Below are positions 4,097-41,099 of a stretch of 64,000 nucleotides of DNA, one piece after another (within the stretch, counting starts at the first letter, position 1; each line of letters begins with the position of its first letter). Under the pieces are notes generated by a model, which saw only the letters and a program-made list of their open reading frames with translations, searched no databases and was not told the origin of the DNA. The translations under genes and the position numbers were made by a program. Source of the stretch: Thermincola carboxydiphila (lineage in GTDB: Bacteria > Bacillota > Thermincolia > Thermincolales > UBA2595); assembly GCA_016841725.1 (NCBI GenBank), contig JAENYP010000014.1, positions 1-64,000 on the forward strand, read 5' to 3'.

Positions 4097-4138
4097 ACTC
4101 AAAAATATATTTTTCAGGGAATACGGGAACACCTGTTT

Positions 4139-4218
4139 TGTGGATGAAAAGTACCTGTGGATAATGTGGATAAGTCTGTTGATAACTTGAAAAACGGGGA
4201 GTTTTACATGTGTAAAAC
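4139..4218. promoter_or_regulatory. DnaA-box-like cluster between tsaD and lgt
   Basis: Two perfect copies of TGTGGATAA, the complement of the DnaA box TTATCCACA, lie head to tail with no spacing (4156-4164 and 4165-4173). One-mismatch copies flank them: TGTGGATGA at 4139-4147 and TGTTGATAA at 4177-4185. More diverged forms follow at 4246-4263. A GTTTTACA/TGTAAAAC inverted repeat lies at 4201-4218. DnaA binding is inferred from consensus only. Confidence 0.6.
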
Positions 4219-4320
4219 ACTTTCGTCCACAGAGCAGCAGGCCGGTGTGGATTTTGTGGAAAAGTGCCATCAGAATGTATTCTGTAAGGAACAGGAGATG
4301 TGGAAAAGGAGGGGATTTAT

Positions 4321-6422: not shown

Positions 6423-6535
6423 AATTTTTCTAATAAAGCAGGAATTTAATAGGTTTTTGTGGAAATAATTAAAAATTTTTTAGACATCCAAAGCGGGTCT
6501 GTGACCACAAAAGTGAAAATAAAGGAGAGGGCATT

Positions 6536-7831: not shown

Positions 7832-7844
7832 GGAGGGAAAGCCA

Positions 7845-8276
7845 TTGAAAGTACAACAGATTTCTGTTTTTCTTGAAAATAAGTCCGGAAGACTTGCTGA
7901 ACTGACCAATGTTTTGGGTAAAGCAGCAATAAATATTAGGGCTCTGTCCATAGCAGATACCTCTGATTTTGGGATTCTGAGGCTTATTGTTAATAAGCCG
8001 GAAGAGGCTTTCAGGATTTTAAAGGATGACGGGTTTAGTGTGAGTATTACTGATGTAATAGCGGTGGAAGTTCAGGATGAGCCGGGAGGCCTTGCCAAGG
8101 TGCTGGAAATTTTGCATTCTGCAGGGATAAATATAGAATACCTGTATGCTTTTTTGGAAAAGTCATCAAATGGTGCCCTGGTAGTGTTCCGGGTGGAACA
8201 GGTAGATGAGGCCGTTGAACTTCTGGCAAAACGCAGTGTTAATGTACTGAAAGGCAGTGATGTTTATAAGCTGTAA
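7845..8276 (+). CDS. Tandem ACT-domain amino-acid-binding protein
   Basis: The 143-residue product consists of two ACT domains (about residues 1-68 and 70-140). The first begins [22 protein letters not shown]; the second has [25 protein letters not shown]. Such stand-alone double-ACT proteins bind amino acids and commonly lie next to paaK-type ligases, suggesting a regulatory role for the ligase pathway; that role is inferred. It starts with TTG 13 bp after paaK, behind AAGGAGGG. Confidence 0.85.
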
Positions 8277-8366
8277 AAATTGGGGGGGATTTACCGTGAG
8301 TTTGGGGTAATGCCCCTTTTGTATTAATTACTGTCCATGCAAAAAAAAGCTAAGGGGGGAAATGCT

Positions 8367-8858
8367 ATGAGGAAGAACCTGCCGTTTTTGATTCTCTTTG
8401 CGGTGGTGGCAGTGGTTATCGGCGGTTACCTCGGTTACACTTCCCTGAATGAAGAGAAAACTGTAATCCCGGAAAACAGGGATATTAAGGCGGCGCCGCC
8501 GCATATAGCAGATGATGAAAACGATTCCGGCAATAAGCCCCAAGATGGTAACAGGGAATCGGACTTATCTCCGCAAACTCTTGAGGAAACCAATGTGGAG
8601 AATGTGGACCCCAAAGCCGGAGAGATGATTGTCTGGGGAGAGGTTAAAGCCGTGGATATTGAAAAACGGATAATTACCATTGACCAGGAAATGGATGATA
8701 ATAGTGTCAAAATCAGTCCTAATGTTGCGGTGAAAAAAGATGCAGTTGTGCGTACCAGGGAGGATGTTATTTCCCTGGAAAGGATTAAAGCGGGAGATGT
8801 GGTTGGCGCTATCATAACCAGTGACGGGAACGCACGGGCTGTGCTGGTTAATTATTAA
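8367..8858 (+). CDS. Membrane-anchored extracytoplasmic protein of unknown function
   Basis: The 163-residue product starts with a single transmembrane segment (LPFLILFAVVAVVIGGYLGY, residues 4-23) with positive charges before it. A low-complexity acidic linker follows to about residue 90. The C-terminal globular part contains VWGEVKAVDIEKRIITID, compatible with a small beta-barrel fold. No lipobox is seen. The ATG at 8367 follows AAGGGGGGAAA. No specific family recognised. Confidence 0.6.
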   Translation: MRKNLPFLILFAVVAVVIGGYLGYTSLNEEKTVIPENRDIKAAPPHIADDENDSGNKPQDGNRESDLSPQTLEETNVENVDPKAGEMIVWGEVKAVDIEKRIITIDQEMDDNSVKISPNVAVKKDAVVRTREDVISLERIKAGDVVGAIITSDGNARAVLVNY

Positions 8859-8924
8859 AAAGGTCTAAAGTTTTTGTCCCGATTCATCGATAAAGAAATA
8901 AGGGTATTTTGCCCTTCCGACAAA

Positions 8925-9024
8925 GGCAAACCCGTCGAAAGGCGGGGACGCAAAACTACGGGTCTAAAGCAGATTGGCGGTTAGCTATGAAGCCGCTGTG
9001 ATGCCATGACAGCCGGGTTGCCGG
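8925..9024 (+). promoter_or_regulatory. Cyclic di-GMP-I (GEMM) riboswitch
   Basis: Shows the GEMM-I layout. A P1 strand GGCAAACCCG (about 8935) pairs with CGGGTTGCC (about 9015-9022). A hairpin with a GAAA tetraloop (CCCGTC-GAAA-GGCGGG) follows. Next come the conserved GGACGCAAAACTACGGGTCTAA segment in two adjoining blocks, and a second helix ending near GACAGCC. The tetraloop and the internal CTAAAG-type receptor are both present. It lies upstream of the small membrane protein gene at 9126, so it should make that gene respond to c-di-GMP. Confidence 0.87.
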
Positions 9025-9090
9025 AGAATTGGGTTGGCTCACGGCCTGTCTTCGGCTTTTCTTCCGGAGACAGGCCTTAGTGTTCTCCGG
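9021..9090 (+). promoter_or_regulatory. Hairpin downstream of the c-di-GMP aptamer
   Basis: CCGGAGAA (9021-9028) pairs with TTCTCCGG (9083-9090), and inside it GGCCTGTC (9043-9050) pairs with GACAGGCC (9069-9076). There is no T-tract after it, so it is not a standard terminator. The first two bases of its outer stem overlap the P1 stem of the aptamer, so it could be part of the expression platform. The mechanism is unproven. Confidence 0.55.
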
Positions 9091-9125
9091 ATATCACACA
9101 ATTTAAGAGGATGGAGGTGATACTG

Positions 9126-9425
9126 ATGGCTACGTCCACTGTTTTCAGGCATTTGCTGGCAGTATTATTCGGGGCTTTTGCCTGGTGGTACTATTATACA
9201 GTGGAGCCGGTGGTAGATTATCCCACGTGGATGGGAAGTATAATTGCAGCTTTTGTTATCACTCTTATTGTAGTGATTATTTCGGAGAACATAGCACTGG
9301 GTCTCGTAATTATTATGGCGGTTTATGTGGTGTACGGCCCTGGTCTTACCTGGGCGGTAAGCCAGTTCCTGCCTCTGTTTGGCGGGGTAGTGGGGGCAAC
9401 TGCCATATGGAAAATAGTAATCTAA
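9126..9425 (+). CDS. Small three-helix membrane protein under c-di-GMP riboswitch
   Basis: The 99-residue, very hydrophobic product has about three transmembrane segments (residues 5-20, 36-58 and 60-90) and short polar loops such as VEPVVDYPTW. No enzyme motif is seen. The ATG at 9126 is chosen because GGAGGTGAT (9113-9121) precedes it. A GEMM-I riboswitch lies about 100 bp upstream and a strong terminator follows, so it is a single-gene c-di-GMP-responsive unit. Function unknown; a role in motility, adhesion or sporulation would fit c-di-GMP control. Confidence 0.7.
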   Translation: MATSTVFRHLLAVLFGAFAWWYYYTVEPVVDYPTWMGSIIAAFVITLIVVIISENIALGLVIIMAVYVVYGPGLTWAVSQFLPLFGGVVGATAIWKIVI

Positions 9426-9437
9426 AGAGGGTAAATT

Positions 9438-9468
9438 CAGCTTGGACTTTGGTCTAAGCTGTTTTTTT
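9438..9468 (+). terminator. Rho-independent terminator
   Basis: CAGCTTGGAC (9438-9447) pairs with GTCTAAGCTG (9452-9461) with one G-U pair, followed by seven T residues. It ends the riboswitch-controlled unit. Confidence 0.85.
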
Positions 9469-9578
9469 GATTTACTAAAAACTTGCCCTGCCACAGGTTT
9501 TCTTTTGAGTCAAATTAAAATATAATGTTGGTATGTACTGGTATACAGAAAGAGATTAAGTCTAATTCAGAGAGGCGG

Positions 9579-10175
9579 GTGTTACAGTTGTCTCAGGAAT
9601 ATTCGGACAACATCGATGATCCAGGAGATTCTTCACAAAAGGCATGGAGGTTTCTGAAGGATATTTTGCAGATTATTATCTTTGCACTTATATTAACCTT
9701 CTTTTTGCGCACTTACGTGATTGAAGCAAGGCTGATTCCGTCAGAGTCCATGCTGCCAACACTTGAAATCGGTGACAGGCTTCTGGTGGACAAGATTGTA
9801 TTTAAATTCAGGGAACTGGAACAGACCGACATAGTTGTCTTTGCTCCTCCTCCGGAGGCACAGCGGGGAGCGGGTGATGATGACCTTATTAAGCGGATTG
9901 TCGGTTTGCCGGGTGATACAGTGGAAGTAAAAGAGGGCAGGGTATTTGTTAACAAGAAGCCTCTGGATGAGCCATATATTGCCGAGAGGCTTAACTATGC
10001 CTATGGGCCTGTTGCCGTTCCGGAAGGATACCTGTTTGTGATGGGGGATAATCGCAATTACAGCTTTGACAGCCACGCATGGGGTTTTTTACCTCTGGAG
10101 AATCTCAAAGGAAGGGCGTTTTTCAGGTTTTGGCCTCTGGATAGATTCGGATTAATTGATGACTCCTGGAAATGA
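9579..10175 (+). CDS. lepB: Signal peptidase I
   Basis: Membrane serine protease that removes signal peptides from exported proteins. One N-terminal transmembrane helix lies at about residues 28-45. The catalytic Ser57 is in SESMLPTL, the general-base Lys105 in LIKRIVGLPGD, and GDNRNYSFDSHAWG is the conserved box E. The GTG at 9579 gives 198 residues; TTG at 9588 is an alternative. An upstream ATG at 9524 overlaps a TATAAT -10 box (9521-9526) and is unlikely. The last two codons and stop lie inside palindromic repeat copy B. Confidence 0.9.
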   Translation: MLQLSQEYSDNIDDPGDSSQKAWRFLKDILQIIIFALILTFFLRTYVIEARLIPSESMLPTLEIGDRLLVDKIVFKFRELEQTDIVVFAPPPEAQRGAGDDDLIKRIVGLPGDTVEVKEGRVFVNKKPLDEPYIAERLNYAYGPVAVPEGYLFVMGDNRNYSFDSHAWGFLPLENLKGRAFFRFWPLDRFGLIDDSWK

Positions 10176-12122: not shown

Positions 12123-12401
12123 TTAGTTAACCGGAAAAACTTCGTCGTGTGTTCCAATGATATAGAATAAATTAATCTGGTCATCTGCTTCTGAATAAAC
12201 TTCAACTATTATTCTAATAGACATGTTTACGCTTATTTCAAAGAAATTATCTGTACCTTGAACTTTTTTAAATCTTAATGAAGGGTGAGAAGGGTCCCTC
12301 ATAAATAATTCAATAGTTTTTTTAGTCTGTTTGATTGATTTCTGATCAAGAGCCCTAAATTGTTTATCGAACTTCTTAGTTGATCTAAATTTCCTAGTCA
12401 T
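12123..12401 (-). CDS. RelE/YafQ-like mRNA interferase toxin
   Basis: A 92-residue basic protein with features of RelE-superfamily toxins: FDKQFRALDQKSIKQTKKTIELF near the N terminus, HPSLRFKKVQGTDNFFEISVNMSIRIIVEV in the middle (split over residues 38-68), and a C-terminal YIIGTHDEVF. It would act as a ribosome-associated or free RNase. It overlaps the upstream AbrB-type gene by 8 bp, the normal antitoxin-toxin order. Pairing of RelE-type toxin with an AbrB-type antitoxin is less common than with RHH or HTH partners. Confidence 0.78.
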   Translation of the reverse strand: MTRKFRSTKKFDKQFRALDQKSIKQTKKTIELFMRDPSHPSLRFKKVQGTDNFFEISVNMSIRIIVEVYSEADDQINLFYIIGTHDEVFPVN

Positions 12402-12696
12402 TATTTAGACCTTCCATGAACTCGTCAATGTTATTGAATTCTCTGGTTCTACCGGATTCTTTATCTCTTTTAGCTTCTACCATATCATTTTGGGTTTTCT
12501 GGGTCCAAAAGTATGCTTGGCTCGAGGGGATTAGCTTATAAGGCTCCATGACAATTTTATTACCTTCAATACGAACATCTAATACGTCCCCTTCACCAAT
12601 GTTGAGCTTTTCTCTTACATCTTTCGGCAAGCTGATTAAATTTCGTTTTTGAACGGATATCCTATGAGATCTAGAAATTTTTTTGGGAGTTGGCAT
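12394..12696 (-). CDS. AbrB/MazE-type antitoxin
   Basis: The 100-residue product has an N-terminal SpoVT/AbrB swapped-hairpin DNA-binding domain (residues 11-52: ISVQKRNLISLPKDVREKLN, then GEGDVLDVRIEGNKIVM). The acidic C-terminal tail (REFNNIDEFMEGLNND) likely wraps the toxin. It lies directly upstream of and overlaps the RelE-like gene. A 12-bp perfect palindrome 23 bp upstream could be its operator. SD GGAGGTGT precedes the ATG at 12696. Confidence 0.8.
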   Translation of the reverse strand: MPTPKKISRSHRISVQKRNLISLPKDVREKLNIGEGDVLDVRIEGNKIVMEPYKLIPSSQAYFWTQKTQNDMVEAKRDKESGRTREFNNIDEFMEGLNND

Positions 12697-13088: not shown

Positions 13089-14648
13089 TTAAGCCACAAT
13101 CGGCGGGGAGCAATTCCTGGGTTCAAGTTTCATCTTCTTTAGCATTTCGCCTTTGCCACACTGTGGACAAAGAGTAATATCCTTACCTGTCAGCTTCAGG
13201 AGCAGTTCTGCAATGTCTGTGATTTTCGTCCTGGATGTACTCAATTTAAATAGCTGCTTACAGGTATTCAGCTTGGTATTACGGTTCCTGTTGCTCAGAA
13301 TCCCGTAGTGACGAATCTTGACGAACCTCTATGGCAGAATATGCAGCAGGAACCGGCGAATAAACTCCTGTGCCCCAAGGGTCATCAGTTTAGTTTTGTT
13401 ATTGTCCCGGTAATCCCGCCATTTAAAGGTAACCTTGCTGTCTTCAACCTTAATAATTCTATTGTTAGAAATAGCAACCCTGTGAGTATACTGTCCCAGG
13501 TATTGCAAGACTTTCTCCGGCCCGGCAAATGGAGGTTTGCAGTAGACTACCCAATTGGCCTTGTAAAGCGGACTGAGAAAAGCGCTAAACCTGTCCCTGC
13601 TGCCGAAAGATTCAATCTTACCCGGGAAAACAAGCTTGTCAAAAAGAAAAGCCTGTTTTAAAAAAGCAAGGAACTTGCCCCGGAAAAGTGTCGCCATAAC
13701 TCTAACCGGGATAAAGAATTTCTTCCTGGAATTAACCCAGCGCCTGCCATCCAATGACAGGCCGCCACCGGTAACAACGCAGTGGACATGAGGGTGAAAC
13801 ATAAGGTTTTGCCCCCAGGTGTGCAGGACAAGGGTAGCGCCAATTTGTGCACCCAAATACTTCTAATCACGGGCAAGTTCCTTCAGGGTATCTGATGCAG
13901 CCTGGAACAGGATAGAATACACTTCCTTCTGATTCCTGAGAGCAATTTGGATAAGCTCTCCAGGCATAGTGAAAACCACATGAAAATATCCCACCGGCAA
14001 CAAATCCTGGTGCCTGTCCTCCAGCCACTCCATAAGTTCAGGAATTTTGCTGCGTAACTTCCCGAGGACAATTAACTGAAGCAAATCTTCAGTAATTTCC
14101 TCTTTGGCGAGAAGGGCAAATATAATATTCATGCCTGATTTGCCAAAGGTATCGGTAGCAACTGATGAGATCATTATATTGGACACAATGAGAGAATTTT
14201 GCACCCTGTTTTTTTCAGCGGAGCGCATTTTAATAAGTTTAGTCCTGTACCTGGTCAGTTCACGTAACTCCCTAATATCTCTGGGGGGAATGAAGCTGGG
14301 GTCAACAAGTCCAATTCTATGTAATTCGGAAAGCCATTTTGCATCGCGGACATCAGTCTTTTTTCCGGGAAAAGTTTTGGTCCGTCTGGGATTAGCGAGA
14401 GTAATGTCAAAATGATCTTCAAACAGGTTAAAAACAGGAATCCAGTACTTACCAGTACTTTCTAAGGCGATGTCCAAGCAGTTGCTTTGCAGGAGCCATT
14501 CACGGGCAGACAGTATACCTGCCTGCATAGTTGAAAAAGTCTTGGTCCGGACAGAGTATGTGCCGTTAGCTTTAGTCTCATTCAATGCTATTGTGAAGGA
14601 CTTTTTGTGAATATCGATACCGGCACAAATGGGATGAATAACCTTCAA
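13089..14648 (-). pseudogene. Chimeric IS110::IS91-type transposase pseudogene (copy 2)
   Basis: Reading from 14648 down, residues 1 to about 206 are an IS110 transposase N terminus (GIDIHKKSFTIAL; TDVRDAKWLSELHRIGL; IRELRELTRYRTKL). At about 14030 it passes in frame into an IS91-family transposase: LLPVGYFHVVFTMPGEL, LVLHTWGQNLMFHPHVHCVV, YLGQYTHRVAISN, and a C-terminal CPQCGKG. Two in-frame TAG codons (13863-13865 and 13326-13328) interrupt the IS91 part. The IS91 N terminus with its zinc-binding segment is lost. Both parent elements are therefore dead. Confidence 0.85.
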
Positions 14649-16259: not shown

Positions 16260-17534
16260 TTACTCCTTGTAATTCTCAGTCAGGTACTGTTTTATCCAGT
16301 TGATAACTGCCGGATTGTTCAGGGGAACATCTTCGAGCTGTTCCCTGAGTTCCCGGGCATCGAAGATTATTTCCCGGTCATTGATTTTATGGACAAAGGT
16401 CAGGTCCAGATTTGGATTACCCACAATAAGGTTAACGATAGTGTCTATAATGTTTCCCAGGGGAGCCCTGTCAATATGACTGTGGCGGAACGAGGCCTTC
16501 AAGGTGGTCCCTTTTCCGGGAGCTGATTCTATATCCATACTGCCGTCACAGCGTTCCGCGGCAGCCTTGAGCAGGGGAATGCCCAGCCCGACTCGTCTTG
16601 TTGTCCTGGTGGTAAAGAAAGGGTCCATTACTTTAGCCCTGAGTTCTTCGTCCATACCCCGCCCATTATCTGATATTTCAATGTTAAAGATGTCTCTCGC
16701 AGTATTTTCACTTATCGCCAGCTTCACTTCCGTTGCTTCTGCCTCAATGGAATTTTGAACTATGTCTATAATGTGCATGGCCAGGTCTTTCATTTTTGCC
16801 AACACCTTTCTACCGGAAATGTTTTTTATGGCTTTTACCAGGTCACTGAAATCCGGGGGAGCTGCTGAATAAATTACTGAAGGGTTTGCACCAATGTCCT
16901 GAAGGCAGTGAGCATCAGATGAACTAATAAAGGTATATCCGGACAGTGCAGGCAGGAGAAGCGCCGCTTCGTCTGCAGACATTTGCCGGGATAGTTCCAT
17001 GGCCATTACTGACAGGTCAGGGGGCACAAAACCCAAAGCAGCCATGAGACTGTAAGAAGGTCTGTCCACGTGGGCAGGTATGCAAAGTCCTCCCAGGCCG
17101 GTGACGGTGCCGGCAATTGTTTCCACAGACATATCTGTTGATATCAGGAGCATTTTGTCCAGTTCCCGGATAACCCTGCCGGTGCTGTCCATAACAGACT
17201 GGGAACCAAAAACTCCGGGGTTGTTTAATTGATTCGGAAGATTGTGATACACTATTTCCTGGCAGGCAAGACATGCTTCAAGGTCAGGAAAGAGACAGAC
17301 CATGTGGACCTCTTCACGGGTCTGGATTTCCATGCCTGGAATAACAAAAATGCCGCTCCCTTCAGCGGCCTTAATAGTTGCTCCCGTGTTTTCGGCAGTG
17401 TTATGGTCGGTTATTGCAATCATCTTAAGGCCTTTGGCCCTTGCTGCATGGATTATTTTGGGCGGTGTCATCTCTTGTTCGGCGCAGGGTGAGAGGGCTG
17501 TATGGATGTGGAGGTCTATTTTATAAGGGATCAT
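16260..17534 (-). CDS. PHP-domain phosphoesterase fused to histidine-kinase-type ATPase
   Basis: A 424-residue fusion. Residues 1-240 form a PHP domain: metal-binding DLHIHTALSPC (residues 6-16), ITDHNTAEN (40-48), GMEIQTREEVH and SSSDAHCLQDIG. Residues about 246-390 form a GHKL ATPase: MKDLAMHIIDIVQNSIEAEA (N box), ISDNGRGMDEE (G1), TRRVGLGIPLLKAAAE and GKGTTLKASF. In related organisms, as I recall them, these are separate adjacent genes; here no stop separates them and an internal Met marks the old start. Last gene of the minus-strand sensor operon. Substrate unknown. Confidence 0.82.
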   Translation of the reverse strand: MIPYKIDLHIHTALSPCAEQEMTPPKIIHAARAKGLKMIAITDHNTAENTGATIKAAEGSGIFVIPGMEIQTREEVHMVCLFPDLEACLACQEIVYHNLPNQLNNPGVFGSQSVMDSTGRVIRELDKMLLISTDMSVETIAGTVTGLGGLCIPAHVDRPSYSLMAALGFVPPDLSVMAMELSRQMSADEAALLLPALSGYTFISSSDAHCLQDIGANPSVIYSAAPPDFSDLVKAIKNISGRKVLAKMKDLAMHIIDIVQNSIEAEATEVKLAISENTARDIFNIEISDNGRGMDEELRAKVMDPFFTTRTTRRVGLGIPLLKAAAERCDGSMDIESAPGKGTTLKASFRHSHIDRAPLGNIIDTIVNLIVGNPNLDLTFVHKINDREIIFDARELREQLEDVPLNNPAVINWIKQYLTENYKE

Positions 17535-17551
17535 TGGTTACCACCCCTAGT

Positions 17552-17887
17552 TTACTTTTTCAGGAGGCTATAGAGTCTGCCGGCTGCTTCAAAGGTCGGC
17601 AGCTTTGTTGTCAGTATAGGAATATTTTCCTGGGCAGCTTTGGCAATAGTTTCCGGGTCAGGTTCTGCGCCCCTTGAGATTAATATGGCAGACAGTCCAA
17701 TAAGTGATGCCACGGCAACAATATTGGGATGGGTCTGCAGGGTAATCCAGATGCTGTCTTTTTTGGCGTTTGCCATGACATCACTCAACAGGTCTGAACA
17801 GTAACACCAGCTTACGTCCCGGTCCGGTAACAGTTTACAGCATTTAAATTCTGCTTCCAGTTCATTGACGGTTTCCTTAAGTTTCAT
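17552..17887 (-). CDS. DRTGG-domain protein (short)
   Basis: A 111-residue single DRTGG-like domain: CYCSDLLSDVMANAKKDSIWITLQTHPNIVAVASL in segments, then GLSAILISRGAEPD and ENIPILTTKLPTFEAAGRL. Such domains are believed to sense ligands. Its ATG overlaps the stop of the Fe-hydrogenase-like gene (ATGA), and the PHP-ATPase fusion follows 17 bp later. It is a paralogue of the gene at 19815. Function inferred only from context. Confidence 0.8.
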   Translation of the reverse strand: MKLKETVNELEAEFKCCKLLPDRDVSWCYCSDLLSDVMANAKKDSIWITLQTHPNIVAVASLIGLSAILISRGAEPDPETIAKAAQENIPILTTKLPTFEAAGRLYSLLKK

Positions 17888-19227
17888 TTTTTGCTCCCCT
17901 TTCCCATGTCTCTGATACGTTTTTCTTTCTTTAAAAGGTTCAGCATATCCTGGGCTGAATCCTGAATATTTTCCAGAAGCTTGAATATACAGTCAGTAAC
18001 AGAGGCATACCCCTGGGCGATATCCTCGGCGAGAGCCCGGCAGCTTGGGGAACCGCAGGAGCAGCAGTCAAGTCCCGGAAGTGTTCTTAAAATTTCTTCT
18101 GCCCGGCTGACCATTTGGATAGCCTTGGAAATGTCCTGATTCAAAGTCATGACCGAATGTGCTTCAATTGTCTTGCTGTGATGGAAATAACCCTTTTGGT
18201 AGAGATCGTCTGCTGTCTTAAGGGTCTCCGGGGGAAGGGAATCAGGCAGTTTTTTAATCAGGTCCCTTGTCATTATCCTGGCTAAAAAGGGATTTTCCAC
18301 AGTCAGCGGACCACCCACACAGCCTCCCTGACAAACCAGGCACTCTATATAGTCAACATCCTTAAAATGCCCCATTTCAGCTTCCTCAAATATACTGATG
18401 ACATTATTAAGGCCATCTGCTACCAGGTAGTTTGGCGCATTTACGGCAATAGTCTCTCCGCCGGAACGGGCCCATCCTATGGCCATCCCGGAAGCCTTGG
18501 CCAGGCTGCTGTCATCGGGGACAGTATTGAGGGCATTTAAAATATTACCATAAAGGTGAATCATGGCAATTGCTCCATCAATGGGGGATTTGTCAATACC
18601 GACCGGCCTTTTGATAGATGTGACTTTGGCGGTGCAGGGGGTAATCATAAAAATGCCAATCTGGTCTTCGGGGATGCCCTTATTCCTGCTAACCTGTTCC
18701 CTGGCCAGTTTGGCCGCAATTTCCATTGGTGACAGGAGTGGGGCTATATTATCGATCAGGCTGGGGAAACGCACCTGGATAAGTTTTACGACTGCGGGAC
18801 ACGCGGACGATATAACCGGCTTTTTCAGCCGGCGCGACTTAAGCAGGTTCCGGGCAGCAACCATGAATGCATCAGCGCCTATGGATTCCTGGAAAACATC
18901 ATCAAAACCAAGGGCTTTTACGGCATTTAAAATTTTCCCCGGCGGCATCACCCTGTGGAATTGGGAATACAGCACCGGTGAACAGAGGGCTATGGTGTAC
19001 TTGAATTCCCTCAAACGCCTCAAGTCCAAAGGGTCGGTAATGGCAATTTTGGCATGGTATGGGCATGTCCTGATACAGTTGCCGCAGTTAATACACCGCT
19101 CCTCAATGGTAATGGCTGTACCCTTTCTGACCCTGATAGCTTCGGTAGGGCAGTTCTTGACACAGTTGGTACACCCATTGCACTTTTCGGCATCCACAAT
19201 ATCACAGAGAAAATGCTTTTTAGTCAC
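17884..19227 (-). CDS. Fe-hydrogenase-like iron-sulfur protein, probable redox sensor
   Basis: About 447 residues. Two N-terminal [4Fe-4S] sites (CNGCTNCVKNCP and CINCGNCIRTCP) are followed by an Fe-only hydrogenase C-terminal domain. The H-cluster cysteines are retained in altered motifs: SSACPAVV for TSCCPAW, ITPCTAKVTS for PCxxKK, and ECLVCQGGCVGG. A C-terminal CCSCGSPSC cluster site ends the protein. The altered motifs resemble sensory or non-classical group proteins rather than a catalytic hydrogenase. GTG at 19227, behind GGAG, is preferred over the GTG at 19236. Confidence 0.8.
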   Translation of the reverse strand: MTKKHFLCDIVDAEKCNGCTNCVKNCPTEAIRVRKGTAITIEERCINCGNCIRTCPYHAKIAITDPLDLRRLREFKYTIALCSPVLYSQFHRVMPPGKILNAVKALGFDDVFQESIGADAFMVAARNLLKSRRLKKPVISSACPAVVKLIQVRFPSLIDNIAPLLSPMEIAAKLAREQVSRNKGIPEDQIGIFMITPCTAKVTSIKRPVGIDKSPIDGAIAMIHLYGNILNALNTVPDDSSLAKASGMAIGWARSGGETIAVNAPNYLVADGLNNVISIFEEAEMGHFKDVDYIECLVCQGGCVGGPLTVENPFLARIMTRDLIKKLPDSLPPETLKTADDLYQKGYFHHSKTIEAHSVMTLNQDISKAIQMVSRAEEILRTLPGLDCCSCGSPSCRALAEDIAQGYASVTDCIFKLLENIQDSAQDMLNLLKKEKRIRDMGKGSKK

Positions 19228-19261
19228 GGGTTTCACTCCAGACTCTATTTGGTTATTAACA

Positions 19262-19337
19262 GATTTCTTACGTCAGGTGGAGATTGAACTCCAACTGACG
19301 TAAGAAATCGTTATCCGGGAGCTTAGCGCCGCTAAGC
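19262..19337 (-). promoter_or_regulatory. Two strong intercistronic hairpins in the sensor operon
   Basis: GATTTCTTACGTCAG (19262-19276) pairs with CTGACGTAAGAAATC (19295-19309). After one G-A mismatch, TGGAG pairs with CTCCA, leaving a 6-base loop. Next to it GCTTAGC (19321-19327) pairs with GCTAAGC (19331-19337), containing the stop codon of the ATPase gene. No T-tract follows on the minus strand, so attenuation, RNA processing or a protein-binding palindrome are all possible. Confidence 0.75.
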
Positions 19338-19781
19338 AGTCGGGTAGATTACAACCGTCAGTGTTGTGCCCCTTCCCAAAGATGAATCGAGTGTGAACTC
19401 ATCAGAAACATTCCTAATATTGGGAAGGCCCATTCCGGCTCCGAAGCCCATTTCGCGTATATGGTCGGGAGCAGTAGAATATCCTTCTTTCATGGCCTGG
19501 TCGATGTCAGGAATGCCTGGACCGGTATCAGCTGCAATGATTTCAATTCTTTCGGGGCTGATTGATGTTATCAGGACTCCTTCCCAGGCGTGAATGACAA
19601 TATTCATCTCTGCCTCATAGGCAGCAATAGCTGCCCGCCTAATGACGGCAGGGGCAAAGCCTATCAACTGCAAGGTATGCTTTATGTTGCTGGAGGCTTC
19701 CCCGGCGGCAACAAAATCCATGCCTTTGATGGAGTATTCATGTTTGATGTCTTTGGTTACCGGTTTTTTTTGTTTTTCCAA
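19332..19781 (-). CDS. RsbW-like ATP-binding regulatory protein
   Basis: A 149-residue GHKL ATPase-only protein. It has AAYEAEMNIVIHAW (N box), IIAADTGPGIPDIDQAM (G1), MGFGAGMGLPNIRNVSDEF and SLGRGTTLTVVIYP. Layout matches anti-sigma factor/serine kinase proteins of the RsbW/SpoIIAB group, but no sigma factor or anti-anti-sigma is nearby. Starts with TTG at 19781. Second gene of the operon after a DRTGG gene. Confidence 0.8.
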   Translation of the reverse strand: MEKQKKPVTKDIKHEYSIKGMDFVAAGEASSNIKHTLQLIGFAPAVIRRAAIAAYEAEMNIVIHAWEGVLITSISPERIEIIAADTGPGIPDIDQAMKEGYSTAPDHIREMGFGAGMGLPNIRNVSDEFTLDSSLGRGTTLTVVIYPTA

Positions 19782-19814
19782 TTTAACTACCCTTTCATGA
19801 CCGGGCCTGAATAA

Positions 19815-20189
19815 TCAGTATTTTATTTCGTTTTTGGCTGTCTTCATGGGAACATTCTTCAAACCGGCTTCATACAAAAGTCCGCACGTTAAATAAAATG
19901 TATGGTCTGTAGTCAGCAGAGGGATACTTTTGATTCTGGACAGGTCTAACATCTCGTCAGTAGGGTTTTTGCCGCGAATAAAGATTACGGCCGCAATATC
20001 AAGCATCTCTGCGGTTCTGATTACCTGGATATTGACCAGACCGGTAACGAGCAGCGCATTAGGTTCGGAAAACATCAGGATATCACTCATCAGGTCACCG
20101 GCACAAACATAAGATATTTCGTTTTCCAAAGATTCTTCACAGCAGTGTATCTTGGAATCAAGAAGCTTGGACAATTCTCGCAGATTCAA
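19815..20189 (-). CDS. DRTGG-domain protein, first gene of the sensor operon
   Basis: A 124-residue protein with the same pattern as the gene at 17552: ISYVCAGDLMSDILMFSEPNALLVTGL in segments, IAAVIFIRGKNPTDEMLDL and SIPLLTTDHTFYLTCGLLYEAG. TTG start at 20189 behind GGGGGGGA. It is transcribed divergently from the formate dehydrogenase operon. Ligand unknown. Confidence 0.8.
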   Translation of the reverse strand: MNLRELSKLLDSKIHCCEESLENEISYVCAGDLMSDILMFSEPNALLVTGLVNIQVIRTAEMLDIAAVIFIRGKNPTDEMLDLSRIKSIPLLTTDHTFYLTCGLLYEAGLKNVPMKTAKNEIKY

Positions 20190-20713
20190 GTCAGTCCCCC
20201 CCTTATGTATCGGGAATCTTGGTTCCTCTTTATGAAAAGTACTACAGACAATTGTAAATCACGTTAATATTAGTTCTTCCTGTTTCAGGAAAATCCTTTT
20301 AAAAACTATGCTTCAGGGGACTAGTCGCAAAATTAAGACTTTTCAGGCAGGAATTCTGCAAGTTTTGTCAAATCAAATAATGAATAACTTATAGTTTGCT
20401 CATGAACCGTTTTCCAATAATATCTTCCAATAAATACTTCCTGAAATACTTCCTGAAATACTTCCTGAAATACTTCCTGAAATACTTCCCGGTTAATATG
20501 GAATGTTTTTCAATTAATGAAATAATTCTATACTGCTTGGCAATTTCCTGCCTGATTCGGATGGTATATTCAAAAAATTGAGACAGCTCTGGCAGGAATA
20601 ACGGTTTTTTTGTCTAATACTTTACTGTTGCCCTTGTTTTCCGCATTATTGCCTTCACAATTTCATATCCAAAAAAATAAACGAAAGACTTAAGGAAGGA
20701 GGGGAAGAAAATC
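20190..20713. promoter_or_regulatory. Divergent regulatory region with a 12-bp tandem repeat array
   Basis: 524 bp separate the minus-strand sensor operon from the formate dehydrogenase operon. At 20432-20490 AAATACTTCCTG is repeated head to tail four times perfectly, with a fifth diverged copy (AAATACTTCCCG). A further partial match (AATATCTTCC) precedes it. The 12-bp period is near one helical turn, which suits an array of regulator-binding sites. An in-frame reading gives only a KYFL repeat peptide, judged non-coding. No convincing promoters identified. Confidence 0.6.
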
Positions 20714-21199
20714 ATGTGTCAGTGTAACTGTGAGGAACCCAAATCAAATGAAGCCCTTGAACTGGAAAAGGTGTATGTTAAGTATGAGGGCAAAAAAGGA
20801 GCCTTAATCCCTGTTCTTCAGGCGGCTCAAGACATCTATGGATACTTGCCTGCAGAGGTGCTGAAGGATATTTCCGCCAGACTGCGGATTCCTGTGAGCA
20901 AGATTTATGGGGTTGTTACTTTTTATGCCCAGTTCCACCTGAATCCCAGAGGCCGCAATATTGTCCGGGTGTGTCTTGGAACTGCCTGTCATGTGCGCGG
21001 CGGCGCTAAAATCGCTGAAGCGGTGACTAAAGCTATCGGGATTAAGGACGGTGAGACAACAGAAGATCTCAGGTATACCTTTGAGTCTGTTGCCTGTCTC
21101 GGTGCCTGCGGTCTGGCTCCTGTTATGATGGTCAATGATGAAACTCATGGCCGTTTAACTCCGGACAAGATTGCAGCTTTACTGGAAAAATACGAGTAA
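20714..21199 (+). CDS. NuoE-like [2Fe-2S] subunit of the formate dehydrogenase complex
   Basis: The 161-residue product has the NuoE/thioredoxin-like fold: LIPVLQAAQDIYGYLP, then ARLRIPVSKIYGVVTFYAQF, and the four cluster cysteines in CLGTACHVRGG and CLGACGLAPVMMV. It passes electrons between NuoF-type flavoprotein and other clusters. The ATG at 20714 follows AAGGAGGGGAAG. First gene of a five-gene operon ending in the catalytic subunit. Confidence 0.93.
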   Translation: MCQCNCEEPKSNEALELEKVYVKYEGKKGALIPVLQAAQDIYGYLPAEVLKDISARLRIPVSKIYGVVTFYAQFHLNPRGRNIVRVCLGTACHVRGGAKIAEAVTKAIGIKDGETTEDLRYTFESVACLGACGLAPVMMVNDETHGRLTPDKIAALLEKYE

Positions 21200-21237
21200 A
21201 TATGGAATCATCCTATTAAATAAGGAGGTGACCCTTG

Positions 21238-21603
21238 GTGATTAAAAGTTTCGAAGACCTCAAGCGCCTCAAGGAAGAAGCCAAGGCGCTGACCGGTATT
21301 CGTGCCGGTCAGGGTGTTGAAATAATTGTCGGGATGGGAACCTGCGGTATTGCTGCAGGCGCCAGAGAAGTAATGAGCGCCATCCTCGAAGAACTCAACA
21401 AGCGTGAATTATCCGATGTAAGGGTTACTCAGACCGGTTGTATCGGTATGTGTGAAAAAGAGGTTCTGGTGGATGTCGTCCGTCCCGGGGAAAAAAGGAT
21501 TACTTATGGCAACGTTCAGCCCCAGGATGTATCCAGAATATTCAGTTCCCATGTAATTAACGGTCAGATAGTTGAAGACATTGTAGTTGCCAAGCTTGAT
21601 TAA
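21238..21603 (+). CDS. Thioredoxin-like [2Fe-2S] ferredoxin
   Basis: A 121-residue protein with VGMGTCGIAAGAREV and QTGCIGMCEKEVLVDV, supplying the four cysteines of a thioredoxin-like [2Fe-2S] cluster as in subunits of bifurcating hydrogenases and formate dehydrogenases. GTG at 21238 lies 6 bp after AAGGAGGTGA; TTG at 21235 is possible but closer. Located between NuoE and NuoF genes. A similar domain is fused to the N terminus of the NuoF protein. Confidence 0.88.
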   Translation: MIKSFEDLKRLKEEAKALTGIRAGQGVEIIVGMGTCGIAAGAREVMSAILEELNKRELSDVRVTQTGCIGMCEKEVLVDVVRPGEKRITYGNVQPQDVSRIFSSHVINGQIVEDIVVAKLD

Positions 21604-21632: not shown

Positions 21633-23426
21633 ATGCAGTTATATCGTGGTCACGTGCTGGTTTGTGGCGGGACGGGCTGTGTGTCTTCAGGATCAAAGAA
21701 GATTCAGGAGGTCATGGCCAACGAACTGACCAAACAAAATCTTGATAAGGAAATAAAACTTGTTGAGACCGGATGTCACGGTTTTTGTGAAATGGGTCCG
21801 ATTGTTATTGTTTACCCTGAAGGAACTTTCTACTGCCAGGTACAGGTTGATGATATTGCAGAGATTGTATCTGAGCACCTGCTTAAAGGCCGGATAGTAC
21901 AGAGGCTGTTATTTAAAGCCCCGGTTACCGAGGAACAGGTACCTTCCTACAAAGATATTGCCTTCTATAAAAAACAGCACAGGGTTGTTCTAAGGAACTG
22001 TGGGCATATTGACCCTGAGCATATCCAGGAGTATATTGCCAGGGAAGGTTATGAGGGTCTTGCCAAAGTCCTGACAACCATGACCCCCCAGCAGGTTGTT
22101 GATGAAATGAAAAAATCAGGTCTCAGGGGTCGTGGAGGCGGTGGTTTCCCGACAGGGCTCAAATGGGAATTCGCTTCCAAATCCCCCGGGCCTAAGAAAT
22201 ACATTATCTGTAATGCAGACGAGGGTGACCCCGGAGCTTTTATGGACCGGAGCGTCCTTGAGGGAGACCCCCATAGTTTGCTTGAAGGGATGCTGATTGG
22301 CGCTTATGCCATTGGCGCAGACGAAGGTTATATCTATGTCCGGGCCGAGTATCCCCTTGCCATCAAACGGCTGAAAGTAGCTATTGCTCAGGCTGAGGAA
22401 CTGGGACTTCTGGGTGATAATATTATGGGTACCGAATTCAGCTGCCAGCTGCATATCAAAGAGGGTGCCGGAGCCTTCGTATGTGGTGAAGAGACAGCTC
22501 TGATGGCTTCCATAGAAGGTTCCCGCGGGATGCCAAACCCGAGACCGCCTTTCCCGGCAGTCAAAGGCCTTTGGGAAAAACCGTCAAATATAAACAATGT
22601 GGAAACATATGCCAACGTACCTGTTATTTTCCTTAATGGCGCTGACCAGTTTGCCACCCTGGGAACGGAAAAAAGCAAGGGTACTAAGGTATTTGCCCTG
22701 ACAGGTAAACTGAGGAACACCGGTTTGGCTGAAGTTCCCATGGGCATTGCCCTGAGGGAAATCATCTTTGAAATCGGCGGCGGTATCATGGATGACAAGA
22801 AGTTCAAGGCTGTCCAGATAGGCGGCCCCTCAGGAGGATGTATCCCAGAGCAGCATCTGGATACTCCGGTTGACTATGATTCCCTGATAGCTCTTGGGGC
22901 TATGATGGGTTCCGGTGGTCTTGTGGTCATGGATGAGACTTCCTGTATGGTTGATGTGGCCAGGTTCTTCCTTAACTTTACCCAGAAGGAGTCTTGCGGA
23001 AAGTGTACACCATGCCGTGAGGGTACAAAGAGAATGCTGGAAATCCTCCAGAAAATCTGTGACGGTAAGGGTGTTCCGGAAGACATTACAACCCTGGAGA
23101 CCCTGGGTGCAGTTATTAAAAATACTGCCCTCTGCGGTTTGGGGCAGACAGCTCCCAACCCGGTTCTGGCCACTCTGAGGTATTTCCGCCATGAATATGA
23201 AGCTCATATAAATGACAAGAAGTGTCCTGCAGGCGTTTGTTCTGCTCTGCTTGAATACAAGATTGTTGCCGACAATTGCAAAGGCTGTGGCGCCTGTGCC
23301 CGTGTCTGCCCCGCTGGAGCTATTACCGGTGAGAAGAAAGAACCTCATGAAATCGATACTTCCAAGTGTATCAAATGTGGAAGCTGCATCGAAAAATGCA
23401 AATTTAACGCCATCGTTAAAGGTTAG
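21633..23426 (+). CDS. NuoF-like NAD(P)H/FMN subunit
   Basis: The 597-residue product has three parts. The N terminus (about 1-95) is a thioredoxin-like [2Fe-2S] domain (GGTGCVSSGS, ETGCHGFCEMG). The middle is NuoF: GLRGRGGGGFPTGLKWE (NADH site), CNADEGDPGAFMDR (FMN site) and SCGKCTPCREGTKR ([4Fe-4S]). The C terminus has two [4Fe-4S] ferredoxin motifs, CKGCGACARVCP and CIKCGSCIEKC. This layout is that of diaphorase subunits in NAD(P)-linked, often bifurcating, hydrogenases and formate dehydrogenases. Bifurcation itself is inferred. Confidence 0.93.
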   Translation: MQLYRGHVLVCGGTGCVSSGSKKIQEVMANELTKQNLDKEIKLVETGCHGFCEMGPIVIVYPEGTFYCQVQVDDIAEIVSEHLLKGRIVQRLLFKAPVTEEQVPSYKDIAFYKKQHRVVLRNCGHIDPEHIQEYIAREGYEGLAKVLTTMTPQQVVDEMKKSGLRGRGGGGFPTGLKWEFASKSPGPKKYIICNADEGDPGAFMDRSVLEGDPHSLLEGMLIGAYAIGADEGYIYVRAEYPLAIKRLKVAIAQAEELGLLGDNIMGTEFSCQLHIKEGAGAFVCGEETALMASIEGSRGMPNPRPPFPAVKGLWEKPSNINNVETYANVPVIFLNGADQFATLGTEKSKGTKVFALTGKLRNTGLAEVPMGIALREIIFEIGGGIMDDKKFKAVQIGGPSGGCIPEQHLDTPVDYDSLIALGAMMGSGGLVVMDETSCMVDVARFFLNFTQKESCGKCTPCREGTKRMLEILQKICDGKGVPEDITTLETLGAVIKNTALCGLGQTAPNPVLATLRYFRHEYEAHINDKKCPAGVCSALLEYKIVADNCKGCGACARVCPAGAITGEKKEPHEIDTSKCIKCGSCIEKCKFNAIVKG

Positions 23427-23440
23427 AGGGGGGCTAAATT

Positions 23441-24376
23441 ATGGCCAATGTTACTTTAACCATAAATGGGCAAAAGGTTACCGTGCCTTCAGGAATTATG
23501 GTTCTTGAGGCTGCGGAAATGTGTGGTTATTCTGTGCCGACATTCTGTCATGAAAAGGACCTGACAGCGCCCGGCGCATGCCGCATATGTGTTGTGGAAA
23601 TTAAGGGCTGGAGAAACCTGCCTCCTTCGTGTGTGACAGCTGTTGCTAAGGGAATGGAAGTTGAGACTGAGTCTCCTAAGGTTATTGAGGCAAGAAAGAC
23701 CATCCTTGAGCTGATGGTTGCCAATCACCCGCTGGATTGTATGACTTGTGAGAAGAGCGGCAGCTGCAAGCTTCAGGACTATGCCTACCGCTATCAAGTG
23801 ACCAGTCCGACTCCATATGAAGGTGAGAAAAAACAATTTGCTGTTGATGACAGCAACCCTTATATCTACAGGGATCCCAACAAGTGCATTCTCTGTGGTA
23901 AATGTGTAGCCATATGTAAGGCTGTCGCCGACAGAAATGTAATTGACTATGCTTTTAGGGGATTCAATACCAAGATTGCCACATTCATGGATACTGAGCT
24001 GAAGGATTCTGCCTGTGTCTATTGCAACCGCTGTGTCTCCATCTGTCCTGTCGGAGCCCTTTCTGACCGGAACATGATGGGTAAGGGACGCACCTGGGAT
24101 TTTACCAGGGAGGAAGTTACCTGCACTTTCTGTGACTCCGGATGCAAGTTTGATGTTAATTATAAGAACGGAAAAGTAGTTGGCGTTACTGCCAAGAACC
24201 CTTCTGCCGGCAGGCCTTTGTGCCTGAAGGGCCGGTTGGGTACCGAGTTTATGAAGAATGCTGACAGAACAGACCTGCCGCTGATCAACAAGGATGGCGA
24301 GTTTGTTGAGGTCTCATGGGAAGAAGCCCTCGGTATCGCTCCGATTGTGGAAAAAATCAATGCACTGAAAAAATAG
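23441..24376 (+). CDS. Truncated paralogue of the formate dehydrogenase N terminus (iron-sulfur protein)
   Basis: The 311-residue product aligns with residues 1-300 of the next gene. It keeps the [2Fe-2S] cysteines (C36, C46, C49, C63), the NuoG-type HPLDCMTCEKSGSC site, two ferredoxin sites (CILCGKCVAIC, CVYCNRCVSICP) and the molybdopterin-oxidoreductase Fe4S4 motif CTFCDSGCKF. It stops at VEKINALKK just where the catalytic molybdopterin domain would begin, so it is an electron-transfer subunit without active site. The clean stop and good SD suggest a functional subunit rather than decay. Confidence 0.85.
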   Translation: MANVTLTINGQKVTVPSGIMVLEAAEMCGYSVPTFCHEKDLTAPGACRICVVEIKGWRNLPPSCVTAVAKGMEVETESPKVIEARKTILELMVANHPLDCMTCEKSGSCKLQDYAYRYQVTSPTPYEGEKKQFAVDDSNPYIYRDPNKCILCGKCVAICKAVADRNVIDYAFRGFNTKIATFMDTELKDSACVYCNRCVSICPVGALSDRNMMGKGRTWDFTREEVTCTFCDSGCKFDVNYKNGKVVGVTAKNPSAGRPLCLKGRLGTEFMKNADRTDLPLINKDGEFVEVSWEEALGIAPIVEKINALKK

Positions 24377-24394: not shown

Positions 24395-27097
24395 ATGGCT
24401 GACAACGTAACCCTTACCATAAACGGCCGGAAGGTGACGGTCCAGGCGGGGATAACCGTACTGGAGGCTGCTCAGCAGAATGGGATAGACATCCCGACCT
24501 TCTGTCATGACCCTGAGCTGTCCAAGCCAGGGGCATGCCGGATATGTGTGGTTGAAATAAAGGGCTGGCGCAATCTTCCGCCTTCATGTGTAACCGCGGT
24601 TACTGAGGGTATGGAAGTAGAAACCGAATCAGAAGCCGTAGTGGAAGCCCGGCGAACCATCCTGGACCTGCTCCTGGCCAACCATCCGCAGGACTGTATG
24701 ACCTGCCAGAAGTTCGGGGACTGCCGGCTGGCTGATTATGCATACAGGTATGGGCTGAGGAAGACCACTTTTATTGGAGAACAAACCAATGTGCCGGTTG
24801 ACGAATCCAGTGCGGTAATCACCAGGGATGTTAATAAGTGCATTCTCTGCGGCAAATGTGTCCGTGTCTGTGCTGAGATAGTGGGCCGTAATGTGGTTGA
24901 TTTTGTTTCCCGCGGTTTTACTACAATAGTAAGCCCGGCCCTTGAAATGGGACTGGGTGAGAAAGAAGCCGGCTGTGTAAACTGCGGCAGTTGTGTTGCC
25001 GTTTGTCCGGTAGGAGCCCTGACAGAGAAAAATATGCAGGGTATCGCCCGCCCATGGGAAGTTGAAAAGGTCAAGACAACCTGTCCGTACTGCGGCTGTG
25101 GCTGTAATTTTGATCTTAATGTTAAAGACGGAAAGGTTGTGGGTGTAACCTCCAACCCGACCAGTGCAGTCAATGGCCGGCATCTTTGTGTCAAAGGCCG
25201 TTTCGGCTATGACTTTATCCACAGTTCTGACCGCCTGACACTGCCGCTGATCAAAAAAGGCGGCAAAGATGGCGATTTTGTTGAGGTTTCCTGGGATGAA
25301 GCCATCAGGTATGTGGCTTCCAGGCTGAAAGAAATCAAGGAGGAAAATGGCAGTGAAGCTATGGGGATACTCAGTTCCGCCCGCTGCACCAATGAGGAAA
25401 ACTACCTCATGAACAAGCTGGCACGGGTGGCTTTGGGTACCAACAATATAGACCACTGCGCGCGTCTCTGACACTCCGCTACTGTTGCCGGTCTGGCAAC
25501 TTCATTTGGGAGTGGCGCAATGACTAATTCCATTGGAGAAATCAGTGAATGTGATTATCTCTTTGTAATCGGTTCGAATACCACTGAGACCCACCCCATA
25601 ATTAGCCTTCAAATGAGAAAAGCTGTCAGTCGTGGGGCCAAACTGGTGGTAGTTGACCCGAGAAAAACTGAAATAGCTGAACTTGCCGATGTGCATGTTC
25701 CCCTGAGACCGGGGGCCAATATTCCGCTGCTTAATACGATGTGTAATGTAATCATTGCCGAAGGACTGTATGACAAGGAATTTGTGGCCAACCGCACCGA
25801 AGGCTTTGAAGAACTGAAGTTAGCTGTGGAAAACTTTACCCCGGAGAATTATACCGGTATCATTGGTGTTCCGGCAGAAACTATCAGGGAAATTGCCCGC
25901 GGCTATGCCAAGGCGGGCAGTGCGGCAATCTTCTATACGATGGGGATTACCCAGCATACTTCCGGTACCAATAACGTCCTGGCTGTCGCTAACCTGGCAA
26001 TGCTGACAGGTCAAATAGGCAAACCCAGCAGCGGCGTGAACCCCCTCAGGGGCCAGAACAACGTTCAGGGCGCTTGCGATATGGGGGCGCTGCCAAATGT
26101 GTTCCCCGGATACCAGGGGGTTGCTGTTCCGGAGAATGTTGAAAAATTTACCAAGGCGTGGGGCGTTCCTCAGTCCGCTAAAGCTGGTCTTACTGTTGGT
26201 GAGATGATGGATGCAGCCCACCATGGTGACATGAAAGCAATGTATATCCTTGGTGAGAACCCTATGCTCAGTGACCCGGATATCACTCATGTCCAGCAGG
26301 CTCTGGAAAATCTGGAATTCCTGGTTGTCCAGGATATCTTCCTGACAGAAACCGCCATGCTGGCTGATGTGGTCCTGCCTGGAGCCAGTTTTGCCGAGAA
26401 AGACGGTACCTTTTCCAATACCGAGCGCCGCGTGCAGCGTGTACGTAAGGCAATTGAGCCACTGGCCGGCAAGGCTGACTGGGAGGTTATCTCAGAAGTC
26501 CTTACTGCATTGGGATATCCCCATGAGTATGGCAGCGCCTCTGAGATATTTGATGAGGCCGCCAGGGTCACCCCGCAGTATGCTGGTATCTCCTATGCCC
26601 GCCTTGAGGAAAAAGGCCTCCAGTGGCCGTGCCCCAATACGGAGCATCCGGGGACCATTTACCTTCATGATGGTAAATTCTCCCGCGGTCTGGGCAAGTT
26701 TACCGGGGTAGACTTTGAACCTCCGGCAGAGCTGCCGGATGAGGAGTACCCGTTTGTACTCAACACGGGACGCCGCTTGTATCATTATCATACAGGCACG
26801 ATGACCCGCCGGACCAAAGGGCTGAATACCATCTATAGTGAGGAATCTATCGAAATAAATCCTGCAGATGCGTGCAAACTGGGCATCAGTGACGGTGAAC
26901 TGGTTAAAGTCAGTTCCCGCCGCGGTTCAATCAGCGTTAAGGCCCAGGTTACCGATATGATACAGCAGGGTATGGTATTTACTTCATTCCACTTCGCTGA
27001 AGCTCCGGTCAACTTCCTGACAAACAGTGCGCGTGATTCTATTTGCAAGATACCTGAACTGAAGGTAGCTGCGGTTAAGGTGGAAAAAGTAAGCTAA
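24395..27097 (+). CDS. fdhA: Selenocysteine formate dehydrogenase catalytic subunit
   Basis: Oxidises formate or reduces CO2 at a molybdo- or tungstopterin centre. The reading frame contains TGA at 25469-25471 (residue 359) in the context CARL-U-HSATVAGL, the formate dehydrogenase selenocysteine motif, with a SECIS hairpin directly after it. Read through, the protein has 900 residues: [2Fe-2S] (C37, C47, C50, C64), HPQDCMTC site, two ferredoxin motifs, Fe4S4 CPYCGCGCNF, the catalytic domain, and a C-terminal molybdopterin-dinucleotide-binding domain. Simple ORF calling would split it in two. Confidence 0.95.
25469..25507 (+). promoter_or_regulatory. Bacterial SECIS element in fdhA
   Basis: After the TGA, GTTGCC (25484-25489) pairs with GGCAAC (25495-25500) around a GGTCT apical loop. 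The apical loop is identical to the key GGTCT of the E. coli fdhF SECIS, and its distance of about 18 nt from the TGA is as expected for SelB binding. Confidence 0.88.
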
Positions 27098-34991: not shown

Positions 34992-34995
34992 GGAT

Positions 34996-40954: not shown

Positions 40955-40971
40955 GTAAAAAAAAGATAAAA

Positions 40972-41087: not shown

Positions 41088-41099
41088 AATGGTATTATG

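Follow-up and report, generated by a model that had tools for sequence, protein, structure and literature searches.

What does a hydrogenase-like sensor report in a cell in which the genes for building a hydrogenase active site are not found? This question is raised by a 64,000-nucleotide stretch of Thermincola carboxydiphila DNA (contig JAENYP010000014.1; the whole stretch is referred to as the window), in which the operon of HydS, a putative sensory [FeFe]-hydrogenase homologue, lies divergent from the genes of a formate dehydrogenase (FDH). Group D hydrogenases, to which we assign HydS, are called H2 sensors, but the work cited below leaves open both the signal they respond to and the way they pass it on. 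Our results slightly favour the view that the operon is a redox-signalling module for a NuoE/NuoF-type dehydrogenase complex and not obligately an H2 sensor, with HydS as a likely [4Fe-4S] sensor without a completed diiron H-cluster. Since many genomes keep the whole operon without the builders of the H2 site and pair it with FDH, the choice between H2 and redox sensing becomes directly testable.

The HydS operon and its conservation

Five genes on the (-) strand, 16260-20189, form the operon according to the open reading frame list and Pfam domain matches:

16260..17534, (-) strand: fusion of a PHP phosphoesterase domain and a GHKL ATPase, PHP-HATPase (Pfam PHP, E=3e-10; HATPase_c, E=2e-16)
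17552..17887, (-) strand: DRTGG2 (Pfam DRTGG, E=1.4e-7; AlphaFold2 (AF2) model; Foldseek)
17884..19236, (-) strand: HydS, group D-type putative sensory [FeFe]-hydrogenase homologue, 450 amino acids (Fe_hyd_lg_C, E=7e-35; C-terminal FeS, E=1e-10; two Fer4)
19332..19781, (-) strand: RsbW/SpoIIAB-like GHKL ATPase (HATPase_c, E=1e-8)
19815..20189, (-) strand: DRTGG1, first gene of the operon, TTG start (DRTGG, E=1e-4)

The HydS and DRTGG2 genes share a 4-base overlap, and a gap of 524 bp separates the operon from the divergent nuoE-Fd2-nuoF-(311-aa protein)-fdhA genes. An earlier note on this DNA had described such a five-gene operon facing FDH, with a hydrogenase-like protein of altered H-cluster motifs. 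All of the open reading frames are present with the domains it stated, and the motifs are altered as described below; the range it gave, 17884-20189, contains DRTGG1, RsbW and HydS and leaves out DRTGG2 and PHP-HATPase, so that the operon has to be extended to 16260.

HydS consists of two N-terminal [4Fe-4S] motifs, an H-domain and a C-terminal Cx2Cx4Cx16C motif (C391, C394, C399 and C416), and has no PAS domain. The L1 motif reads SSACP instead of TSCCP, with Ala in place of the proton-relay residue Cys299 of CpI, L2 reads TPCTAK instead of MPCxxK (Met353 to Thr) and L3 reads ECLVCQGGC instead of E(I)MACPGGC (Met497 to Leu). All four cubane cysteines, including the equivalent of CpI Cys503 that bridges to the diiron site, are kept, as is the equivalent of CpI Lys358 (Lys204). 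The protein scored 103 bits against TIGR02512 (cut-off 406), which together with the Cys299 substitution sets it apart from catalytic group A enzymes. Its AF2 model (predicted local distance difference test score 87.8) matched [FeFe] hydrogenases in the PDB at E ~1e-20. Judged by its sequence, HydS carries every tested hallmark of group D (M2e) as given by Land et al. (PMC8163306); the hydrogenase-like protein is thus a putative sensory hydrogenase of a recognised kind and not an unknown.

Two published systems can be compared with the window. TamHydS of Thermoanaerobacter mathranii (group D/M2e) shares the layout (2x4Fe-4S, H-domain, Cx2Cx4Cx16C, no PAS) and the active-site substitutions of HydS, and a GHKL ATPase, located upstream of a NuoEF-type complex, is its neighbour (PMC8163306, PMC13104023). 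Its operon partner is, however, a bifurcating group A hydrogenase, whereas the partner in the window is the divergent FDH, in a genome in which HydEFG were not detected. Halanaerobium hydrogeniformans has the same gene set at Halsa_1862-1871, published as a putative operon without a proposed function and listed as HydA, NADH dehydrogenase, ferredoxin, histidine kinase, NuoE, PHP, Fe-S and hydrogenase proteins and an anti-sigma Ser/Thr kinase (PMC4237134); there, a single co-directional operon includes HydA, unlike the divergent arrangement with FDH in the window.

In order to follow the operon beyond the window, we searched a phylum sample of 398 genomes, 179 of which had a HydS match at E<=1e-30 and about 155 (counted from the listing) a group-D-like HydS at E<1e-80. 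Neighbourhoods were surveyed at 100 HydS loci plus named loci; neighbours were counted as same-strand family matches from -2.6 to +3.8 kb of HydS, with the two DRTGG profiles cross-matching. DRTGG1 was found at 97, RsbW at 98, DRTGG2 at 97 and PHP at 88 of the 100 loci, and the common plan is DRTGG1-RsbW-HydS-DRTGG2-PHP-NuoE-HATPase-Fd2-NuoF-HydA. Because the partner families recur at 88-98 of 100 loci, the association is not due to chance; the operon is old, widespread and already known in outline, and hence not new in itself. The earlier note had named, as evidence against its idea, an operon occurring mostly without hydrogenase or FDH genes. The opposite was observed: among the 68 loci flanked by 8 kb or more on either side, NuoF was present at 60 and HydA or FDH at 55, and at 4 of the other 13 an FDH cluster lay just outside the fetched stretch. 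Frequent valS/SPOR neighbours, read by eye, look like plain synteny.

Maturases, formate dehydrogenase and the signal read by HydS

The divergent genes encode the complex that HydS would monitor:

20714..21199, (+) strand: NuoE-like thioredoxin-fold 2Fe-2S subunit (Pfam 2Fe-2S_thioredx, E=9e-54)
21235..21603, (+) strand: 2Fe-2S ferredoxin-like subunit, Fd2 (NCBIfam fdxn_Clost, 4.5e-14, below cut-off; conserved position by NuoE/NuoF)
21633..23426, (+) strand: NuoF/HydB-like NADH-FMN subunit (Complex1_51K, E=1.3e-46)
23441..24376, (+) strand: 311-aa NuoG/HydA-N-terminal-like Fe-S protein (NuoG, 2.9e-70 over the N-terminal half; Molybdop_Fe4S4)
24395..27097, (+) strand: selenocysteine FDH alpha subunit, FdhA (readthrough to 900 aa, U359; TIGR01591, E=5.7e-270)

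An in-frame TGA at 25469-25471 of fdhA is read as selenocysteine, and with NuoE, NuoF and FdhA with a NuoG-like N-terminus the cluster qualifies as an NADH-linked (NuoEF-type) FDH. SelA- and SelD-like genes, read by eye, lie close to it at 33582-36054.

The window genome (3.88 Mb, 99.99% complete) lacks recognisable maturases: the best HydG match (E=3e-55, compared to E<1e-130 in most HydG-bearing genomes) is not at the level of a true HydG, HydF gave generic GTPase matches only, and the best HydE match reached 113 bits at a cut-off of 255. HydE, HydF and HydG were likewise not above cut-off in the congeners G005 and G006, nor in G009 and G002, whereas in G003, which belongs to the same family, HydE and HydF were found together with a strong HydG match. 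Across the survey, 45 HydS-bearing genomes had no strong HydG match, and a check of all 45 for both HydF and HydE recovered HydF only in G158 and G336 and HydE above cut-off in G336 and G355, leaving about 42-43 of the ~155 HydS-bearing genomes without a usable HydEFG set. Weak search sensitivity is an unlikely cause, since HydG-positive genomes nearly always yielded HydF (30 of 30 tested, and all but the 61%-complete G004 in a second set). As the organism lacks the genes for building the hydrogenase active site, HydS probably reads the redox state of the cell and not H2.

Lack of maturases went along with FDH as the partner of HydS. Fourteen of the 16 FDH-linked HydS loci belong to maturase-less genomes and two to genomes with maturases, compared to 8 and 43 of the 51 HydA-linked loci (Fisher's test, p=2.9e-7, or 1.7e-5 using only the ten loci with FDH inside the fetched stretch; both values are overstated, as the genomes are phylogenetically non-independent). 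The other four FDH-linked loci are those of f29 genomes, with the FDH cluster just past the fetched locus. In the HydS tree, which holds survey relatives and not TamHydS, family f29 is placed as sister to the family of the window genome with a support of 94; neither HydEFG nor a group A HydA was found in its five HydS-bearing genomes, and its HydS has Gln at the position equivalent to CpI Lys358, a diiron-site contact. This lysine was lost, with replacement by Q, E or R, in 7 of 40 maturase-less HydS and in 0 of 64 others. The losses fall into three lineages, f29, G035 and G060, the latter two of which also have the longest branches, and G060 is HydS-bearing without any group A HydA. The lack of HydEFG in so many HydS-bearing genomes, the window genome and its congeners among them, the FDH pairing of these maturase-less genomes and the confinement of lysine loss to them look new.

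Several observations weigh against a diiron-free HydS. Some of them would fit the rival reading in which HydS is a genuine H2 sensor with a complete H-cluster, as in TamHydS, and is matured either along an unrecognised route or by maturases that the assemblies missed. The window HydS keeps all H-cluster cysteines and Lys204, and TamHydS shows activity when given a synthetic diiron site (PMC8163306). Moreover, the window genome encodes a canonical group A HydA (TSCCPGW, MPCVAKK, MACPGGC; locus L001, G000:C10:171710-175567, 748-2610, (+) strand), apparently as a lone gene, which is conserved across the window family. Canonical HydA without detectable HydEFG also occurs in other genomes, e.g. G024, G050, G090, G120, G124, G236 and G287, in up to four copies, in three assemblies of family f43 and, in G236, on a single contig; hydA without hydEFG has been published for heliobacteria (PMC9147875). 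Either HydA persists diiron-free in such genomes or an unrecognised maturation route exists, a puzzle that reaches beyond HydS. In addition, several maturase-less assemblies are metagenome-assembled genomes, and those with HydA in the operon (G032, G070, G172, G255, G331, G344 and G365) were treated as possibly incomplete. The C-terminal cluster of TamHydS is not reduced by H2 (PMC13104023).

The persistence of canonical HydA in maturase-less genomes, one of them the single-contig G236, kept us from equating missing maturases with a missing H-cluster, and is the reason why we regard a diiron-free HydS in the window lineage as an evenly balanced proposition. We nevertheless consider a genuine H2 sensor unlikely here: HydE, HydF and HydG are jointly absent from five related assemblies, the best of them 99.99% complete, while the same searches succeed in relatives and in almost all HydG-positive genomes checked for HydF or HydE; the partner is FDH and not HydA; and the lysine is lost in f29 and G060, where the HydS-bearing genomes have no group A HydA.

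The relay proteins, their fusions and rex

The earlier note had suggested that the operon relays hydrogen or redox state to a transcriptional or kinase output. The hydrogen part finds no support in this organism, with HydE, HydF and HydG undetectable, whereas the redox relay is well supported by the conserved gene order, intact GHKL and PHP catalytic motifs, natural fusions and the presence of rex at a quarter of the loci; a kinase or transcriptional output is what we infer. In the proposed sequence of events, the monitored complex would be NuoE/NuoF-type, NADH- and probably ferredoxin-linked, and here the selenocysteine FDH. Reduction of a HydS cluster would cause a conformational change passed on to DRTGG2, DRTGG1-RsbW and PHP-HATPase would act as ATP-dependent transducers, and the output would be either a transcription or sigma factor switched at the twin elements described below or a direct action on the NuoE-Fd-NuoF-FdhA complex. 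We infer all of this, from the direction in which electrons flow to each signalling step and the route of the output.

RsbW, HATPase and PHP look like working proteins, since their ATP- and metal-binding residues are near-invariant. All nine PHP metal ligands (H6, H8, D40, H41, E66, H74, H152, D204 and H206, domain numbering) are invariant in 88 relatives, and so are N14, D42, G44, G46, G69 and G71 of the HATPase; in the RsbW-like protein, the N-box (E42/N46), G1 (D71-G-P-G) and G2 (GFGAGMGLPN) are near-invariant. Its nearest PDB structure is the anti-sigma F factor SpoIIAB, and the two share GHKL motifs, but it stays well below the SpoIIAB/RsbW equivalog cut-offs (48.6 bits against a cut-off of 135, and 21.9 against 145), and among the genes of the operon we recognised neither a sigma factor nor a STAS partner. 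Operon-type RsbW is instead a sharp subfamily of its own (members at E<1e-49, next best >1e-17), found in 12 of 12 HydS-positive and 4 of 63 HydS-negative genomes. DRTGG2 is above the Pfam cut-off (31.7 vs 25.2 bits), and its AF2 model (score 94.8) matched best the DRTGG protein AF1212 and the CBS-DRTGG region of the Clostridium perfringens pyrophosphatase (3l2b, 3l31); DRTGG1 alone is below the cut-off (E=1e-4), yet forms a clear family across the survey. The DRTGG proteins of the window stand alone, unlike the pyrophosphatase region, and some operon relatives have CBS pairs fused to RsbW. As CBS-pyrophosphatase is described as an adenylate-regulated enzyme (PMC11172384), this likeness of fold makes an energy-charge input to the relay plausible by analogy.

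Natural fusions name likely downstream partners. In six genomes, which belong to two families, DRTGG1 and RsbW form a single protein. HydS is fused to DRTGG2 in two genomes (G041, G117), PHP to HATPase in the window family (separate genes in most genomes), HATPase to Fd2 in one genome (G053) and, in several lineages, a CBS pair to RsbW, at L048/L163, L122 (Pfam-confirmed), L223 and partly L118. Put together from different organisms, this chain would link the sensor end with NuoE/Fd at the other; such fusions of neighbouring operon parts appear not to have been described before.

In HydA-type operons, HATPase mostly sits between NuoE and Fd2. This position, the G053 fusion, the CBS-RsbW fusions, the resemblance of DRTGG to a nucleotide-regulated CBS-DRTGG region and the lack of a recognised sigma factor or STAS partner would also fit a redox sensor whose output is not transcription: the ATPases and DRTGG proteins would bind the NuoE/Fd subunits and so control the NuoEF-FDH complex, either directly or in an adenylate-dependent manner. 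We consider this output possible but somewhat doubtful: the unique twin element speaks for transcriptional regulation of one operon or both, and the clustering of rex suggests a transcriptional layer. A rex gene on the same strand accompanies 26 of the 100 loci, which come from eight family groups and show it in three position classes, compared to about 1 locus expected by chance (assuming 1.5 rex genes per genome and ignoring relatedness), an association that also looks new; RseC/MucC was found at 15 of 100 loci, and the surroundings of the window operon showed no rex. Rex binds hydrogenase operons (PMC8457756), with binding also predicted in PMC5886521, and both the clustering and the known binding support a role in NADH/ferredoxin balance.

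Some GHKL ATPases serve as chaperones, and the five proteins go with the catalytic complex regardless of which catalytic subunit it has, as assembly or chaperone factors for NuoEF-type complexes would. Such a non-sensory role is improbable, because many sampled genomes have hydrogenase maturases and no HydS operon, so that their complexes presumably form without its help, because RsbW most resembles an anti-sigma kinase, and because rex clusters with the operon.

The relay may also run with an input other than HydS, since G097, G044 and G018 carry RsbW-type relay parts without it. Of the HydS-negative genomes with operon-type RsbW, G097 has the whole operon with CBS-RsbW minus HydS, G018 has Rex nearby (read by eye), and in G008 the contig is cut. 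In G044, locus L222 (G044:C6:42500-61500, 4636-10116, (-) strand) reads DRTGG1-RsbW-RseC-Rex-multihaem cytochrome-NfnAB, without HydS (names beyond DRTGG1/RsbW by eye).

A 43-bp twin element between the operons

By aligning the divergent intergenic region of the window genome with those of five relatives, we found a 43-bp element in two copies:

20331..20373, (+) strand: copy A, AATTnAGAC-N6-GGCAGGAwT-N9-TTTGTCwAAT, conserved in family f1
20576..20618, (+) strand: copy B, in the same orientation as A and ~95 bp upstream of nuoE

The two copies are the sole matches at <=3 mismatches in the 3.88-Mb genome. Five relatives have exactly two, a 75%-complete genome has one (strict pattern) and G003 has indel variants; none occurs in the HydS-less family members G002 and G001, and none was found in f29 genomes or in the fetched loci of other families. 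Because of the fixed spacing and linear conservation, we favour a candidate protein-binding DNA site, which provides a defined DNA to assay and, with its only two copies lying between the two operons, appears to be new; no transcription factor is known to bind the element, which counts against our main reading. An Rfam search of the intergenic region gave no match. A sigma-54 promoter in copy A was rejected as the -12 GC is unconserved, AGGAwT fits a SigH promoter, although all copies have A or T in place of the -10 G, which makes SigH a lead only, and a partial Rex site at ~20250 is unconserved in relatives. At 20433-20490, between the copies, a unit of 12-13 bp (ttcctgaaatac) is repeated in tandem about four times, a feature that only the window genome has among the six aligned.

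Taken further, HydS may have been uncoupled from hydrogen in several lineages, as an all-[4Fe-4S] sensor with an ATP-dependent DRTGG/RsbW/PHP relay that would control FDH, in the window family via the twin promoter element; we put this forward tentatively, at somewhat less than an even chance.

The maturase-less window genome encodes two further proteins with hydrogenase-like domains. An open reading frame at L002 (G000:C25:342666-346331, 178-2475, (-) strand, 765 aa) combines Fer4, hydrogenase-like, C-terminal FeS, sigma-54 activator and Fis helix-turn-helix domains, as would a HydS-like sensor with a direct connection to transcription. At L201 (G000:C29:54000-64000, 3960-7364, (+) strand, 1135 aa), with a cheB-like gene lying upstream, a hydrogenase-like domain is joined to HATPase and CheX domains; the protein is a putative sensory hydrogenase homologue linked to chemotaxis. 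Elsewhere in the window, we noted a c-di-GMP-I-GGC riboswitch (8916-9026), small RelE-like/AbrB-like genes (12123-12696) and transposase remnants (13329-14648), the latter two read by eye, and a Moco (molybdenum/tungsten) riboswitch upstream of molybdopterin genes (40963-41100).

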